The notes below the pieces were generated by a model that was not told where the DNA came from, ran no database searches, and saw only the letters and a program-made list of their open reading frames with translations. Below are positions 2,839 to 23,832 of a stretch of DNA of 24,685 nt, one piece after another. The stretch covers positions 1-24,685 of the forward strand of contig JSYX01000226.1 of the NCBI GenBank assembly GCA_000787465.1, given 5' to 3'. Source of the stretch: Thermomucor indicae-seudaticae (lineage: Eukaryota; Mucoromycota; Mucoromycetes; Mucorales; Lichtheimiaceae). Position 1 is the stretch's first letter, and each line of letters starts with the position of its first letter. Made by a program: the position numbers and the translations under genes.

Positions 2839-3777
2839 ATGAACTCATATAACGAAACTGGTAACAACCGCATCGACGCTCAGGAACCAAATATGCCTGC
2901 GTCTACGGTGGCGGGTACTATGGTATGTTTTCGGTCTTCCAAGTTAACGCTTAGCAGTTGCATGCATGGGATGATTAACAACGCTAACTGCTTGCATTTT
3001 CGTTATTTCTTTATTCTAGAATGAAACACATCGATCGCCTATGGCATATGATCCAAGCAGACACTTAACCTATGGTCAGCCATTAGTGTCAATGGTACGT
3101 TGTCTTCTTTGTAGAAAGCGAAAGAAAGAGCATCGAAATTTATTGCAATTCGGCAGCCTGCAGCAGCAGCGATGATTACAGCTCAGGCACAGGTCATGAA
3201 CCCGTCTCTGTACCGTGGCCCCAACGGCGAAGTTATTGTAGCACCGCCCGCCGCTCCCCAACCACCACCAACTGAAGAAGAGCCACTCTATGTAAACGCA
3301 AAGCAATATCATCGTATCCTTAAACGTCGCGCTGCTAGATTCAAGTTGGAGGAAATGAATAGAGTCGGTCGTACTCGCAAGCCATACCTTCACGAGAGCC
3401 GCCATCGACATGCTATGAGGCGCCCGCGTGGCCCTGGTGGACGCTTTCTCAGTAAGTCCCTGGAACATATCACCTACATAGTCCTAGATAATGACCCAGA
3501 TACTTCTTTAGCTGCTGCTGAAATCGCTGAATTGGAGAAAAACGGCAAGTTACCGAGCAATGCTTCCGGCAGTAATAATAACTCCTCACAGCAGCAGCAG
3601 CAACAGCAGCAAGGTGCGAAGAGTAGCGAGCAGCAACAGGAACAGTCTTCAAATGGTCCCCCAACAAGCAATGAAAATGGCCTATCACAGCATCAGCAAC
3701 ATGAAAACCCGCAGCAACATCCTCCCAATGATACCACCACTGCGTCCGGAGGATACGCTAATCTACCGACACAGTGA
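2839..3777 (+). CDS. HAP2: NF-YA / HAP2 subunit of the CCAAT-binding factor
   Basis: Sequence-specific subunit of the trimeric CCAAT-binding transcription factor (NF-Y/HAP complex), acting in the nucleus. Exons 2839-2922, 3020-3094, 3157-3451 and 3512-3777 join in frame to 239 residues. The conserved core is at residues 95-151: the NF-YB/NF-YC binding helix ([20 protein letters not shown]) and the DNA-binding part ([19 protein letters not shown], then GPGGRFL). It continues as [13 protein letters not shown] only if the 60-bp intron 3452-3511 is removed; that intron has no stop and keeps frame if retained. The C-terminus is Gln/Asn/Ser rich with CAG/CAA runs at 3591-3611. The ATG at 2839 is the first in its exon, but the frame stays open upstream, so a longer N-terminus or a leader intron is possible. 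An AATAAA lies at 3937. The family call is certain; the first exon is less so. Confidence 0.93.
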
Positions 3778-5075: not shown

Positions 5076-6094
5076 TGTATGATACTGGCGGGTAATAAAA
5101 CGAACAATTGCTATGTTGCAAGAAAAGCTTTATATCCACTACTTATATATATGTATTCCGTGTAGAAAGCCGAACAAGGCTTCACATGGTCTTTTCTATT
5201 AAACAAGCATCTCCCATGCTTGAAATATTCATATGTCCTACAGGGTCTAAGCTTGGAAATCGTGTAGTTAGGAGCCATCATGTGGAGTATGTATGACACT
5301 GTTCCAAAGCGTCCTGCGTTCGGTCCAGATGCCCTCAACACAATGCAATGTAGAACGAAAAAAGGAAGAACAAGCGCTATTTCGTCATAGCAAAGAGTGA
5401 GTATTTCATGTAAAAGAGAGAGAGCTCTATAATCTCGCACTCGAGTATCCTTTCCGATGCATGTGCTGTAAACCAGACATGTCGCTATCTCGTGTGGGCA
5501 CTCGCAGCCATCTGCATCGTTACTGCCAATCTTCAATAGTTATGGCGTTTACTAATATCACCATGAATAAACCGAAAATTCGGAAAAAGGTAACCTCATT
5601 TCTAAATTTGGTACAGAGAATAAGCTCATCTACGTAATTCTTCTTCAAGTCTTTCAGCATCTATAAGCCGATGTTCAGTTCTGCTGAATTACAAGCAGCA
5701 TAAGTTGTTTTCTTCAATTCCGTGGTCGGTTCTACAGTGTTATAGTGGATATTCCCAGCAAAAAGGAACCTGAAAGTAGACATGCAATGAAAGTGCTGAA
5801 ATACCATAACTGATGTCATGTTTATGCCAATAGCGACCTGACATGCTCCGTGGTTATTAAGTCTTACGCTAAGGAAAACTCTCCTTAACTTACGGTACTG
5901 TGAGCAACGAGCTATTGTTCAGGTTGAGTCACGAATGTAGACGTACTTCATTGTTGGTCTACTTTATCCGCTTATGGTCTTTCGAATGTCTGACTTTGAA
6001 TTCCCAAAATTTCTTGGGACGGATATCGCCTTTCGAATTCTTTTGCTTTTCTTTCGCTTTTCCGTCTTTATTGCCATTTTAAGAGGATCAAGTC
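5076..6094. other. Divergent intergenic region upstream of the membrane-protein gene and TFIIF alpha
   Basis: About 1 kb between two divergent start codons. The 100 bases before the TFIIF start are rich in T and C (tttcgaattcttttgctttt and similar), typical of a fungal leader. A 141-codon minus-strand frame at 5111-5536 has no recognisable feature and I treat it as chance. No other gene is seen. Confidence 0.5.
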
Positions 6095-8284
6095 ATGGCC
6101 AGCATTTACAACTTTACACATTCAAATACCCGCGGTCGAGGCCGTGGTGGAATACCCAATCAGCGCCCAATGCACAATACCCTGACCGGCAATGGAACGC
6201 CATCACGATTTCTACCTGCAGATCGGCCAATTATAAAATCTCAGAACACAGTTCAAACATTCAATATCCCATATCAGGACTATCAGCTCACTTCGACTAA
6301 ACGTCGCGGAAAAAATCATGTTATGGATTTCAGAACAACAAAAGTCGTTGACTTTAAGAACTTTGCGCGACCGGTTAAACTTCAGAGGAAAGATGCGGAT
6401 AAACAAAACTATCATCGCCATTTTGGCAACAATAAAACTGCCGGTAATACGCCTGGTGGTGCTGCTGGAGCGACAGCAACGGGCGAATCAAGCTCATCCA
6501 CGTCTTCCCCGCATTATGGACCAAAAACCGGTGCAGACACATCGCTCATTGCTCCTCTTGGTGGCGCAACACGTAACAAACAAATGTTGTTTAAGAAGCG
6601 AACAAAGCAGATCTTCTTGGCAAAAGACGACGTCAGAGAGCTTAAAGAACAAGAAACGAAACCTTGGATATTGGAAGACTACGATGGACAAAACAGTTTT
6701 ACGGGAGTTTATGAAGGATCCAAACAATCAGACTATGTATTTTTCGTCTTGACAGTGAGTAGGCGTGCGAGATATGGAGTTCCACCTTTATAGAGTTATT
6801 TAATGTTGGCAATCATTTTTGCAGGAGAATGGCTTCAAAGTCGTTCCGGTCGACAGATGGTACAAGTTTCAAGCAAAGAGAAATTTCAAAACATTGACAT
6901 TGGAAGAAGCAGAGGAACAGGTAACATTGCTAGAGGGGCGTGTTTTTATCAATCCATGTTTTTACGAAAAATCACTTGCATGTTGCAGCTCAAGAAGCAG
7001 CAAAGACGCGAGCAAAATCGTTGGATGATGCTCAAGCGTAACCAAGCTCTAGCAGAAGCTGAGGAGCAAAAAGCTCAACAGGAACAAATGGGACGTAGTA
7101 AAGTTCGGATCGGTACAGAAAACAGTGAGAAACGACGAGGACAGAGTCGGGACGACGATGAAATGGACGAGCTGGACTTTGAGGATGTCTTCCAAGATGA
7201 CGAAGAAGGAGGCGGAGAGTTTGAATTCGAGGACGAAGAGATGAAAGAGAGCAAAGTATGTATCTTCTTATAACCGCATTGGTGGGCCAAAGCTAAATAC
7301 TGTATATAGGAGCGTTTAAAGCGCGAAACAAAAGGCTATATTCCTGGCGATTATGATGATGAAGACGATTTCTTCGAAGAAAAAACCAATAAGCTCTCCT
7401 CAGATGGAAAGGTAAATAGCGATTAGGGCTTGTAACTGCGGAACTGATTTACTAAAATCTATGGTCTGCAGCAAATGCGAAAGCTTGTGCGAGATTTAGA
7501 AAACAATCGCGCCTATGAATCCGACGAAGAAGTTGATCCGTATGCCTCAAGTGTAAGTGGAAATTAACCCAATCGAATAGTACCAGTGATCTAATAGTTG
7601 ACGTAGGAGGATGAGGTGGAATCGGATACCGAAAAGAAGGAAGAAGTTAAGACTGGACAAGATACTGCTCAACAAAAGAAAGCACCTCAAACCCAGAAGC
7701 GGAAGGCAACTGCTCCTGCGAAACCTCCAGCAACAAAGAAGACCACGGCGGCTAAAGTCAAGAAGGAAGAACTTCCTCGTCCTTCCGCTCGACCTGGGTC
7801 GCCTTCAGTTCATATTAAGAAAGAGCCATCCTCGCCGTCGCCACCGCCAGGAGGAACGCGTGGACCATCTCCGCTTCATGCAGGATCGCCAGTGCGTACT
7901 ACTATTGATACTACCAGTGCAGCAGCTGTTATTGCCACATCCAAGAAACGCAAGGCAGAGGAGGGTGCCTCTAATGCACCGGATGCCAAGCATCGTATTG
8001 TTAACCATCCGGCGCCGTCTTCACCTAGTGGTGGTAGCCACACCATACCTTCCAGCACTGGTGGCCCCAAGGATGAAGACATTATCACTGAGGAAGAAGT
8101 GATTGCGACTTTACGTGGAAAGAAAATGACTCTAAAGGAGTTCTTGATGCATTTCCGGAAGCGTATCAAGAAGAATGAACGCAATCGGGAGATCATAACT
8201 GGTTTACTCAAGAAAGTTGCCAGACACAACTCAAAGGATGACCCTAACACAAAGACACTGGAGCTACGTCCTGAACTCCAGTAA
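6095..8284 (+). CDS. TFG1: Transcription initiation factor TFIIF subunit alpha (RAP74/Tfg1)
   Basis: Large subunit of TFIIF, which binds RNA polymerase II and helps place it at promoters. Six exons, 6095-6754, 6825-6920, 6989-7255, 7310-7411, 7472-7552 and 7607-8284, all join at phase 0 to give 627 residues. The introns are 54-70 bp. The N-terminal dimerisation half is recognisable: VMDFRTTKVVDFKNFARPVK near residue 80, then KPWILEDYDGQNSFTGVYEG and, across the first intron, YVFFVLT-ENGFKVVPVDRWYKFQ. The middle is highly charged, with an acidic block (DELDFEDVFQDDEEGGGEF) followed by Lys/Pro/Ser-rich linker. The C-terminus (about 562-627) is the winged-helix domain: ITEEEVIATLRGKKMTLKEF through TLELRPELQ. 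That domain binds the CTD phosphatase and TFIIB in other species. The length lies between human RAP74 and yeast Tfg1. The start at 6095 is the first ATG of the frame. Confidence 0.93.
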
Positions 8285-16807: not shown

Positions 16808-18417
16808 TTATTCCCGTATACGGATTGCATTCTTTTCCTGTGCGTACTCTCCAACAGGATTTGTCGAGGATGCGATGGCTTCAGATGATGTGTCTTGTAA
16901 GATCTCTTCAGTTGCAAACAACTTTTCGATCTCTTCTAGCGATTTCCCCTTGGTCTCCGGAAAGTAGAAGTAGACTGGTATTAGGTAAAGCACGTTGAGT
17001 ATACTGAAAATCACAAATGTCCAGTAGCTTGCATATTCGAACAAAATCGGTCCCACTTCAGCCACCACAAAGTTGCCTATCCAGTTTGCTGCTGTCGATA
17101 AGGAGTTCCCCTTGGCTCGAAGTGTAGTTGGAAAAATTTCGGAAGGATATAGCCAGGCCAGGCTTAACCAGGTAGCACCAAAGACAAAGTTGTAGCTGGC
17201 GACAAACACCACGATGGCTGGTGCCGCGTTATCGAAATCTGCTTCTGTAGCAGCATACTGAAAGCCGCCCACAAGAGCTAGCGTGACGCCATGTCCTATT
17301 AAGCCGGCATACATCAGTTTTCGCCTGCCGAGTCTGTCGATGGTATAAAGTGATGTCAGCGCGCCGCAAACGTAAATGATTCCGTCCACGCCTGTCATGA
17401 GCATCGCTTTATCTGTGAGCATGAACTGCTCAAATACTATAGTTATGTAATAGCTAGCCATGATTCATGAACTATTCATGAACTAAAGATAAACCATTTG
17501 AAAAAGAAAAAGCATACCTTACGATGTTGATACCGCTTAATTGTTGGATTAACTGGCCACCGATTCCGAGCATAACACGGTATCGACTGTTGAGTTTGCC
17601 TTTAGAAAACAGCTCTCGATACGACGTCATGTTCTGCTGCTGCTCCAGTTCGATAGCCATTCGTATTTCTTCCCATTCGGCGACGCAGCGTGGATGCTTG
17701 ATATCACCATCTGACCAAAGTCGAGCAAGCACGGTTTTGCACTCGTATTCGTGGCCATGCGCTTGAAGCCACCGAGGCGATTCAGGCAAAAAGAAAGTGG
17801 CAGAGAAAAGAGGGATTCCAAAGACGCATTGGAAAGCAAGCGGGAACCTCCACGCAAAGTCGCCCGATACGAAGTACAATCCGTATTCCAGCCAGTAAGC
17901 CATACCGATACCAACGACCAAAAGGACTGCAGAAAGGGCCACATGCACTCCTCTCGCTTTCGGTGGCGACAGCTCTGCTTGATAGACTGGGATCGTGGCT
18001 GTGTTCATGCCGTTGCCGACGCCAGTAACAACTCGAGCGGCGATCATCATGCCAGCGTTCAATGAAAGAGTTTGAGCGAGGGCTCCAATCACTAGAATGG
18101 TACATCCAAGCCGAATCGTCTTGCGGCGACCCAAGGAGTCTCCGATACGGCCAGTCCACAGTGCACCCGCAAAGCAGCCGATTTCATATATGGCGACAAT
18201 GGCGCCCACGAGGCTTGATGAAGGATGGCCCATCTGTTGGTTAAAGCGTTCGTTTGCTACGACGCCTGACATGACACCCTACATATTGCGAAATGAGACC
18301 ATTGTCTTTGACTCGATGTAGGCCTTTTTTCCATGCCTGATCGTATCCAAACAAGAGAAATCCGGTGGCTGCCATTGCCGTGGATGCAGCAAAGAGTGCT
18401 TTACCGTGTAGTACCAT
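16808..18417 (-). CDS. MFS sugar transporter (sugar porter family)
   Basis: Twelve-helix plasma-membrane transporter, probably proton-sugar symport of a hexose or similar substrate; the exact substrate cannot be read from sequence. Exons 18417-18337, 18278-17518 and 17453-16808 join to 495 residues, normal for the family. Signature motifs: GYDQ-GVMSG across the first junction, GRIGDSLGRRKT (70-81), PESPRWL (192-198), QQLSGIN (272-278), DRLGRRK (320-326) and PETKGKSLEEIEKLF (from 446). The second junction restores VSYYITIVFE. The first intron (18336-18279, 58 bp) begins with GC rather than GT. The stop is 70 bp from the convergent REX2 stop, so the two transcripts probably overlap at their 3' ends. 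The start at 18417 leaves 7-8 residues before the first helix, a short cytosolic N-terminus. Confidence 0.93.
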
Positions 18418-19720: not shown

Positions 19721-22166
19721 ATGTCGTCGCATGAACGAGATTCAGCAGGATCGCATGAACAACCACGCCCACGTTTACAAAAATCAAAAGCGTCAGCGTC
19801 CACAATTGCCATTCAACCGCTCGAGATTACGACAACCGCCGTGGTTACCGGAAACACTGACAGTTTTGCAGGCAGTAGTAACGAAGGTCACGAGCAGAGT
19901 GAAACGAACGAAAAAGGTCATACAATAATATCCAGCAGTAGTACCTCGGAAAACACAAGTAGTATTGGAGAAGACGTGTGGTCAGAGGCAGATAATAACG
20001 TGGATCTACGTCGCAAGCCGTCTCACCACCACCACCATCACCATCACCACTACCACATCGTTTCCCCTGTCTTTCACGCAGATTCTTCCTCTTCCGTTTC
20101 CCCATTAGGATCGCCACTCAGCTCGGCAGGTGGAATCGTCCTCACGCCATCAAGCAATGAAGCTGTTATTTTCCCTGAATTACCGCCGCCTATTATCAAA
20201 GGACCGTCTGAAGCTATTGTCGCTTTACAGGATGCTGCTAACGGTTAGTGAGCATTTGATTGGATTCTGAGCGTTTCTTCAACTCTCGAACGTTTGGCTA
20301 TCGTAGACGCGATGAGCAGTTCACAGAAAAGGCGACTCGAAAGACGTACCCCGTCGACTTCAACAACATCACCATCAACAGCCATTCATCCTGCTGCGGC
20401 TGCTGCTGCTGCTATTACTACCACTACGACAGCGGGGTTATCAAAGGATCATGGCTCGAAAAAGGAGAAGAGTCAAAGGACCATGGCTCAACTCTTTGAG
20501 AGCTGTTTCTTTTCGTCTGTTTTGCTCATTCAATGGTCTAACGTTGTAGGGCCCAAGGTAGAGAAGATTTGGTCCAACGAACCAATGAGTGACCAGATCC
20601 AAAGCTTGATAGGCCGTCAAGTGTTGAACGGTGAAATGGATCGAACCATTCAATCAGTAGAACTGAAATGGATTGTGCTGCATCGTCAAGGGATTATCTG
20701 CACAGCCTTTATATATCATGACCAGTCCCTCTGTGCTCTTGTCTTTGTTCTTCCAGTGCGCCATCTTCGTAATTTCTCGCCGTACTTTCGTGTTTTGAGA
20801 GACCGTGTGCCGGAATCACTTATAAGGCCTTTGGTGCAGTTGCGTAAAATCTACCGCCGACAGAACATTGTAAGCTATTTCATATATATCTCGCCAACAC
20901 TTCTCGTGATCTTATATGATATTTCGCAGAGCTGGTCGACTGCTTTGGACTTTTTTGCATGCAGACGACTAGCACCGTTTATTCGGTCCATTATGAAGTT
21001 AGAGTCTGTCTCGCTACCCGTCGATTGCAGTAAAGTAAAGAAAGGCATTGAACCAAATGGTTTGTTCGCTTCTTATCTCCTGCTGACAATGCATGTCATT
21101 TAGATTAGTTACGGCGTTCTTGATCATGAATCGAGACAAATTATAGATTCGCCGTTTTTTGCAAAGTAAGGCAGCAGAAAGTACATAGAGGTAGAGAGTC
21201 TGTAGTCCCTTAATTAACGCGCGGCAGGGTTGTTACATCGCATTTACAGACACAGGCATCTACTGTACTAATAGGGAGCAATCTGACTGCTATAAACATG
21301 GTGCGTAAAGAGTGCTTAAAGTATGGGCGAACCCACGCTGACGGGGAGTAATTATTGCATAGATGATCAACACATTGAGCCTCTTTTTATCACCGGATGA
21401 ACGAAACCGTTCAAGTCATGCAAGGAAGAATCTTCAATATATAGCTGACCTCTATCTTCAGGGCCTCTTAATTCAGGAAGTACAGGATATGGAAACCAGA
21501 CTTGAAACGGCTATTCTTGAGTCAAGTATACCAACGACGGTAGTCGACATGACCAAGCTTACTGTCAAACAGACGCCACTCTTTCTCGAATACGTGGAGC
21601 TTAGGCGAGAGTATTTCAAATGGGTTGAATCTCGGCTTGATAACGACCTTGCAGAATACGTGTCGCAGTCCGATATCGGCACTCACACACCAATGTGGAG
21701 GTTTGTTCTTTTTCCTAAAACATTGGCGTGTATCAGAGAGATATAACATTCCGAACCCCATTATCTTATCGTTGATATCAGGCGACAAACGACAACGTTT
21801 CGCCGAGTAGATACTATAGCACCCATGGTCCAATCTTTGCTTGATGAGGTCAGGCGCATACCTACAAGACTACGAGAAGGATACGTACGCCAATGGCGTC
21901 GGTGGCTGGTACGCCAAGCGTTGACGTTTATCAGGATGGTTCAAAGTGAAAAGTAAAGTTCAGATAAAGAGAGAGGGAGAAAGAAAAACTTCTGTCTCAC
22001 CATTTGATTGAGACTTAGGACATTATCTTCACAGGACGACAAGAGTTTTGCACGTATAACGGAGATCCTGGGATTAAACCATCCTGCGGATCTGACTATT
22101 GTTCTAGCACAGGCTGATAAATTGAGACCTGGTATGATCCACCAATTGCATTCTTACATGAAATGA
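19721..22166 (+). CDS. C9orf72-like protein (longin-DENN family)
   Basis: Homologue of animal C9orf72, which with SMCR8 and WDR41 forms a GAP-type complex acting on small GTPases in autophagy and lysosome traffic. Eight exons, 19721-20243, 20307-20869, 20930-21034, 21104-21165, 21228-21300, 21363-21700, 21782-21952 and 22019-22166, join to 660 residues. The longin part begins near residue 237: WSNVVGPKVEKIW and LNGEMDRTI. Later family signatures follow in the right order: TSHLQTQASTVLIGSN, INTLSLFLSPDER, TKLTVKQTP, RQALTFIR and DLTIVLAQADKLRPG. The first 235 residues are Ser/Thr-rich low complexity with nine histidines (102-110) and an Ala/Thr run. I chose ATG 19721 (context gaccATG) over in-frame ATG 19649. 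The 60-bp intron 20870-20929 has no stop and keeps frame. An AATAAA lies 18 bases past the stop. Partner genes are not in this window. Confidence 0.88.
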
Positions 22167-22469: not shown

Positions 22470-23832
22470 ATGGTTTCCAAGATCCTCTTGTCTATTGGCC
22501 TGGTAGCCGCTGCAGCCAACTCGATCCTCGGCCACCCAATGTCCTTTGGTGATCATGACCTTCGTCCTCAACAACATCCAATCCTTAGTGTTCAAACTTC
22601 TTCAACTGGTGGTGACCCTGGTGCTCCCGGTGGTGATGGTGAAAAAACGGCCGATGCCTTTTTGCAGGCATTCCTACGTTTGCCCATTTGCCATACGAAC
22701 AGTGCTGGTCCAACAGTTCAGCGAGCTTCGACATTGCTTTCATTGGTGCTCCGTTTGATACTGGTAAACTCATTCTTTCTACCATCCTTTTCTTGCAAAG
22801 AAGCCCTGTTGACTCGGATTGACTATTATTATTACAGGCACTAGTTACCGTCCTGGCGCTCGTTTTGGTCCTGCCGGTATCCGTGATGGCTCCCGTCGTC
22901 TTGCTCTTTATGGTGGTTACAACGTCCCAATGGATGTCAACCCCTTCCAGGCTGGTGCCAGGGTTGTTGACTGTTCGGGTATCTTTGTCACGTAAGCTCC
23001 AGACACATATCTAGCCTTTACAGCTCTTTAACTTTAAAACCGTCTTTTAGCCCTTACGATAACGGGGTGGCAATCAAGCAGATCCAAGAAGGCCATCAGG
23101 AGCTCTTGCACCGCACACCTGCCAATCCCAGTCTCAGCAAGTTTCCACGTCTGATCACCTTGGGCGGTGACCACACCATCACCTTACAATTACTCCGTTC
23201 TATCCACTCTGCTTATGGTCCTGTGTCCGTTATCCACTTTGACTCTCACCTGGATACCTGTAAGTCAGCCAACACACGCGCGTACTTCAAACGTGTTACT
23301 CAGATGGGCATGATGTCTAGGGAAACCTGTCGTTTTCGGTGGTGCCAAGTCTGAAGTTGCCTCGGTCAACCACGGCACCTACTTCTACCACGCTTCGCAG
23401 GAAGGTCTGATCAAGAAAGGCGAGTCCATCCACGCCGGTATCCGTACGACGCTTAGCGGTCCGAGCGACTACGTCAACGATCTGGAAATGGGCTTCGAGA
23501 TCGTGGAGGCTCGTGACATTGATACGATTGGTACTCAAGGCATTATTGAACGTATCCGTGAGCGCGTGGGGGACAACCTCGTCTACCTTTCGATCGACAT
23601 CGACGTCTTGGACCCTGCCTTTGCACCTGCTACTGGTACTCCCGAAACAGGTGGCTGATCGACTCGTGAGCTGCGTCGTATAGTCCGTGGTCTCGAAGGT
23701 CTAAAGTTGGTCGGTGCTGACATTGTGGAGGTCGCTCCGGCTTACGATACGAACGCTCAAGTTACTGCTCTTGCAGCTGCTGATCTTATGCTTGAGGTCA
23801 TGTCCCTTATGGTCAAGACACCCGTCAACTAA
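22470..23832 (+). pseudogene. Secreted-type agmatinase/ureohydrolase, disrupted by an in-frame TGA and a probable frameshift
   Basis: Agmatinase-family enzyme, hydrolysing agmatine or a related guanidino compound to urea. It starts with a signal peptide (MVSKILLSIGLVAAAANS). Exon ends: intron 22764-22837, 22992-23050, 23260-23320; the last exon runs to TAA 23830-23832. Binuclear Mn ligands are intact: GGDHTIT, HFDSHLDTW (restored by the third intron) and SIDIDVLDP. In the last exon GTPETGG is followed by TGA at 23656-23658 where the family has Trp (TGG); in the same frame 57 well-conserved residues follow ([20 protein letters not shown]). Near the N-terminus the frame must shift at the T run around 22659-22663 to pass from GEKTADAF to GIPTFAHLPYEQCW. 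Alternatively an intron with acceptor at 22667 and a weak donor (22588, 22609 or 22612) removes it. With both lesions allowed for, the length is about 370 residues. Sequencing error is an alternative to decay. Confidence 0.8.

Follow-up and report, generated by a model that had tools for sequence, protein, structure and literature searches.

We analyzed a 24,685-nucleotide stretch of DNA from the mould Thermomucor indicae-seudaticae (GenBank assembly GCA_000787465.1, contig JSYX01000226.1, positions 1 to 24,685 of the forward strand; hereafter the window), in which a plus-strand gene at 19721–22166 is predicted to encode a C9orf72 family protein. Human C9orf72 is linked to motor neuron disease, and SMCR8 is its usual partner. 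To our knowledge, work on the function of C9orf72 has been almost confined to animals. The gene was reconstructed as eight exons encoding an intact product of 660 residues, in which the sole stop codon is terminal. All seven introns are of the GT...AG type with consistent phases, and their lengths are 63, 60, 69, 62, 62, 81, and 66 nucleotides in order. A preliminary description of this DNA had given the same span, exon number, and protein length, and the seven family motifs that it quoted are all present in the joined protein in the order claimed.

Family assignment of the window protein

A Pfam search with the 660-residue protein matched the C9orf72-like family (PF15019) with an E-value of 2.4e-47 and 162 bits (cut-off 27), covering positions 6–227 of the 230-position profile. 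Up to an E-value of 0.1, the only further family was a condensin family, which was under its own cut-off, and neither an FNIP family nor a folliculin family was matched. In the PDB sequence search, the best matches were two C9orf72 sequences (E-values of 1.2e-32 and 2.9e-30). Among the best 60 of 73 matches, there was no folliculin, FNIP, SMCR8, or other DENN protein, and most of the other entries hit only the His-rich, low-complexity N terminus. The PDB alignments started at residue 245–248 and ended at residue 651; residues 248–651 were collinear with human residues 30–459, and both the longin and DENN regions were complete in one chain in this alignment. Thus, the profile and sequence searches bore out the proposal that the gene is a C9orf72 homologue, and a better match to another DENN family was sought by both approaches and not found.

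The homologue search returned 26 database proteins. Twenty-five of them contained PF15019 and came from 18 genera, which we take to be Mucorales; the remaining protein, from Endogone, lacked PF15019. The closest homologue was that of Fennellomyces, with 65% identity over 88% of the region. Contamination with animal DNA was rejected because all 26 homologues were mould proteins, the best being the 65% identical Fennellomyces protein. Against the 26 homologues, the last 431 residues reached a score of 543 bits and 20 shuffles of the same residues stayed at or below 23.5 bits, by which we rejected chance joining of the exons. A scan of the T. indicae-seudaticae genome with PF15019 gave two pieces, both within this gene; this and the other genome searches below used the 24.8 Mb assembly, in which the window is contig C197. 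From these sequence comparisons, we identify the predicted protein as a C9orf72 family member with a complete longin-DENN architecture, and the gene as the putative C9orf72 orthologue, for which one place was found in the genome.

The exons were compared individually with eight chosen Mucorales proteins (Table 1), and this comparison supports the predicted exons. Exon 8 was the weakest, with 12–20 identical residues of 43–49 in six of the eight relatives; the other two proteins end before exon 8. The alignment with human C9orf72 reaches exon 8, as far as the KPG segment.

The preliminary description had implied that a C9orf72 gene in a fungus is new, which did not hold. According to two earlier reports, C9orf72 was already described from Rhizopus in 2012 (PMC3521125), and most fungi are without the gene (PMC3521125; Levine and others 2013, PMC3570213). 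Among the 26 homologues, no fewer than four are already labelled C9orf72-like in the database. In the open-licence literature, judged partly from titles, we found C9orf72 in fungi treated only in the 2012 and 2013 DENN papers, and we found no paper on a fungal C9orf72-SMCR8 pair. The gene is real, correctly named, and largely already known, and the addition of this study is the SMCR8 partner described below.

N-terminal extension

The window protein has an extension of about 240 residues ahead of the longin domain. We looked for conserved motifs in this extension among 27 sequences, comprising the window protein and its 26 homologues. The first motif, similar to STTAIQTLEITTTAVV, was found in 20 of the 27 when up to four substitutions were permitted, and the second motif, SEAIVALQDAAN, was found in 25. 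Some of the sequences without the first motif have short N termini and others do not; the short N termini of some may be annotation errors. A 33-residue stretch spanning the first motif had no second place in the genome up to an E-value of 10. We speculate that the conserved N-terminal motif may be used for docking.

In exon 1, the motif strongly conserved in Mucorales within this extension, KSKA..ST.AIQPLEITTTAVV, for which one place was found in the genome, lies outside the family profile match, and the low-complexity part of the exon contains a run of nine histidines. His-rich runs occur here in several relatives as well.

SMCR8, FNIP, folliculin, and WDR41 in the same genome

A separate SMCR8 gene was located on the minus strand of contig C584 (8000–16222; locus L006). 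The gene model contains six introns, two of which are GC-AG, and its first exon is uncertain. Neither this model nor that of C9orf72 contains internal stops. At the column of the catalytic arginine, 41 of 42 aligned sequences (42 of the 60 matches were aligned) carried R and one had a gap; the T. indicae-seudaticae protein reads INARGY at this position. The second gene is an SMCR8 orthologue, and three fungal SMCR8 proteins already bear this name in the database. Lichtheimia, Phycomyces, Umbelopsis, and Mortierella gave SMCR8 matches and no C9orf72 match in homologue searches limited by length and shared words, which may reflect loss, misannotation, or the limits of the search.

An FNIP gene was found on contig C254, with matches to FNIP_N (E-value of 2.7e-17) and FNIP_C (2.0e-11). 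Folliculin was not found in the genome using PF11704, PF16692, human folliculin, or an exact motif pattern, in searches that had no positive control and did not bridge introns. When one mismatch was allowed, the motif occurred at three sites, compared with two for the reversed control pattern. Read by eye, the site on C86 falls within a RAD51-like stretch, and no frame resembling folliculin was seen at the sites on C418 and C258. In a homologue search with human folliculin, all named proteins among the best 120 of 667 matches were from vertebrates, so that no fungal query was obtained from it. A 2025 survey reports that FLCN-FNIP1 is conserved in Mucoromycota, and its main text makes no mention of SMCR8, WDR41, or C9orf72 (PMC11836306).

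Human WDR41 gave 43 matches in the genome up to an E-value of 10, the best being 2.0e-6; 37 of these fell within query residues 14–197 and six within 246–432. A second tblastn search with 20 kept loci gave scattered pieces, the longest of which covered query residues 50–364 at L026 with 20% identity and an E-value of 4e-4. Locus L022 had pieces at query residues 38–120 and 321–436. Six of the 20 loci were inspected by eye: L008, L009, L022, and L026 resembled F-box/WD or FBXW7-like repeats, and L010 and L011 resembled different WD40 proteins. The partner search suggested in the preliminary description was thus productive in part: SMCR8 was found, as was FNIP, and WDR41 and folliculin were not recognised in searches that were weak.

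Features of the window

The coordinates of the exons and of other features are summarized in Table 1. Rfam gave no match in the window at the gathering threshold.

Table 1 Predicted exons of the C9orf72 gene and other features of the window. Identities are ranges against the eight Mucorales relatives.
Feature	Position	Strand	Description
C9orf72 exon 1	19721–20243	+	Start codon; Mucorales-conserved motif STIAIQPLEITTTAVV, residues 27–42; His run; motif SEAIVALQDAAN, residues 163–174
N-terminal Mucorales motif	19766–19864		See text
Nine-histidine run	20024–20050		See text
C9orf72 exon 2	20307–20869	+	Low-complexity linker and longin domain (WSNVVGPKVEKIW, LNGEM); PF15019 match; conserved in Mucorales alignment
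C9orf72 exon 3	20930–21034	+	GT-AG junctions; 20–28 of 35 residues identical
C9orf72 exon 4	21104–21165	+	GT-AG junctions; 6–13 of 20 residues identical
C9orf72 exon 5	21228–21300	+	TSHLQT motif; 14–17 of 25 residues identical
C9orf72 exon 6	21363–21700	+	DENN region (LFLSPDER, PTTVVDMTKLTVKQTP); 50–69 of 104–112 residues identical
PF15019 profile piece	21354–21584		E-value 4.8e-17, over the DENN region of exon 6
C9orf72 exon 7	21782–21952	+	RQALTFIR helix; 22–35 of 56–57 residues identical
C9orf72 exon 8	22019–22166	+	DLTIVLAQADKLRPG; stop codon TGA at 22164–22166
NF-YA domain gene	3115–3777		Contains the CBFB_NFYA domain
TFIIF alpha-like	6083–6793		Resembles TFIIF alpha, under its cut-off
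Sugar transporter gene	16808–18278	−	Major facilitator family, in two frames
Arginase-family gene	22470–23658	+	Just downstream of C9orf72; PF00491 matched in 22971–23354 only; remainder and signal-like start read by eye

Proposed function and alternatives

We consider it likely that C9orf72 and SMCR8 of this mould form a longin-DENN GTPase-activating heterodimer, as in humans. In this heterodimer, the longin domains would create a cup that receives the switch regions of a small GTPase. On endomembranes, the heterodimer would stimulate a GTPase of the Arf or Rab type to hydrolyse GTP and thereby switch the GTPase off. Because no WDR41 was recognised, the fungal complex may do without this subunit or use a different recruiter. 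We infer the pairing, activity, and substrate from the human complex.

In the Arf1-bound human structure, the pocket is built from the C9orf72 and SMCR8 longin domains, and SMCR8 Arg147 reaches into the active site (PMC8213707). The C9orf72 double mutant W33G/D34K nearly abolishes activity towards ARF1, and I71R lowers it (PMC8213707). Human Trp33, Asp34, and Ile71 align with Trp251, Ser252, and Met285 of the window protein in the PDB sequence alignment. From this alignment and those of the homologues, the predicted GTPase pocket is largely but not fully kept.

Several observations weigh against the proposed heterodimer. Among the 27 sequences, 26 read WS at the first two positions and one lacks the region; that is, the tryptophan is kept and Asp34 is replaced by Ser in all 26. 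The position of Ile71 is occupied by M in 22 sequences, L in two, V in one, and I in one, and is absent from one. With Ser for Asp34 and Met for Ile71, the choice of substrate may therefore differ. WDR41 was not recognised in the genome using the human query, in a search with no control and with six of the 20 kept loci read. The pairing with SMCR8 is deduced from co-occurrence and family membership only. The structural comparisons are also mixed. The predicted C9orf72 structure is poor outside the longin domain, with a mean predicted local distance difference test (pLDDT) score of 55.2. In VIA-align with the model of a Mucor relative, an archaeal longin protein was highest (Z of 16.2 over 147 residues); the C9orf72 chains had Z values of 14.9, 14.1, 14.0, and 11.0 (rank 12), and FNIP2, at 13.2, was thus level with two of the C9orf72 chains and ahead of another. 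Foldseek with the SMCR8 model gave SMCR8 and folliculin mixed in the first six places.

The gene could encode a different longin-DENN protein with a resemblance to C9orf72, namely a canonical DENN protein or a member of the FNIP/Lst4, folliculin, or NPRL families. This is extremely improbable: the Pfam search and the best 60 of 73 PDB matches gave C9orf72 and no other DENN family, and a distinct FNIP gene is present in the genome, on C254. Other DENN families were thus rejected on profile and sequence. Foldseek agreed, with four C9orf72 chains in its first four places when the same Mucor model was used, and VIA-align was not decisive. Alternatively, a genuine C9orf72 orthologue may act mainly as an exchange factor for Rab GTPases or as a scaffold and not in a GTPase-activating complex. 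The title of a 2018 paper claims guanine nucleotide exchange activity for C9orf72 (PMC6195791), which we counted for this explanation, as we did the lack of conservation of Asp34 in the fungal proteins. Early reports proposed such activity from the analogy with DENN proteins (PMC3521125, PMC3570213). However, the genome retains SMCR8, including the catalytic arginine, together with C9orf72, and the human structure has this arginine in the active site of Arf1 (PMC8213707). We regard a chief role in exchange or scaffolding as possible but unlikely.

A further explanation, to which we assign very little probability, is that SMCR8 is shared in this organism and pairs with both C9orf72 and FNIP, folliculin being missing. 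FNIP is present, and searches with two Pfam families and human folliculin and a pair of motif scans gave no folliculin; however, these searches had no positive control and were unable to bridge introns, and the 2025 survey reports FLCN-FNIP1 as conserved in Mucoromycota (PMC11836306). Returning to the GTPase-activating heterodimer, it is conceivable, although doubtful, that Mucorales keep a two-subunit C9orf72-SMCR8 complex without WDR41 in which a fungus-specific N-terminal motif of C9orf72, STTAIQ.LEITTTAVV, now serves for membrane or partner recruitment. If so, this would be a minimal version of the human disease complex that is amenable to genetics.

A mould with C9orf72 and the SMCR8 arginine would allow tests of the core GTPase function in the absence of neurons and perhaps of WDR41, and such moulds may serve as a simple test bed for the pair. 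The occurrence of C9orf72 and SMCR8 in moulds also helps to date the losses of the pair within fungi.

Comparison with known proteins

FNIP1/2 and yeast Lst4 have the longin-DENN fold in common with the window protein, and the FNIP2 chain and the Lst4 longin domain are high in the fold lists. The window protein differs from them in having no FNIP match (in Pfam up to an E-value of 0.1 and among the best 60 of 73 PDB matches), and the genome has a separate FNIP gene. The C9orf72-like proteins of other Mucorales (Fennellomyces, Circinella, Mucor, Rhizopus, and others) show 45–65% identity in 15 of the 26 matches, namely those with a coverage of 88% or more of the last 431 residues. They share the N-terminal motifs, the lengths of their low-complexity linkers vary, and no substantive difference was seen. 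Human C9orf72 (PDB 6lt0, 6v4u, 7mge, and 7o2w; PF15019) has the longin-DENN architecture and the motif order in common with the window protein over residues 248–651 (E-value of 1.2e-32). Compared with the human protein, the fungal protein adds approximately 240 N-terminal residues with two Mucorales motifs and carries Ser in place of Asp34 and Met in place of Ile71.
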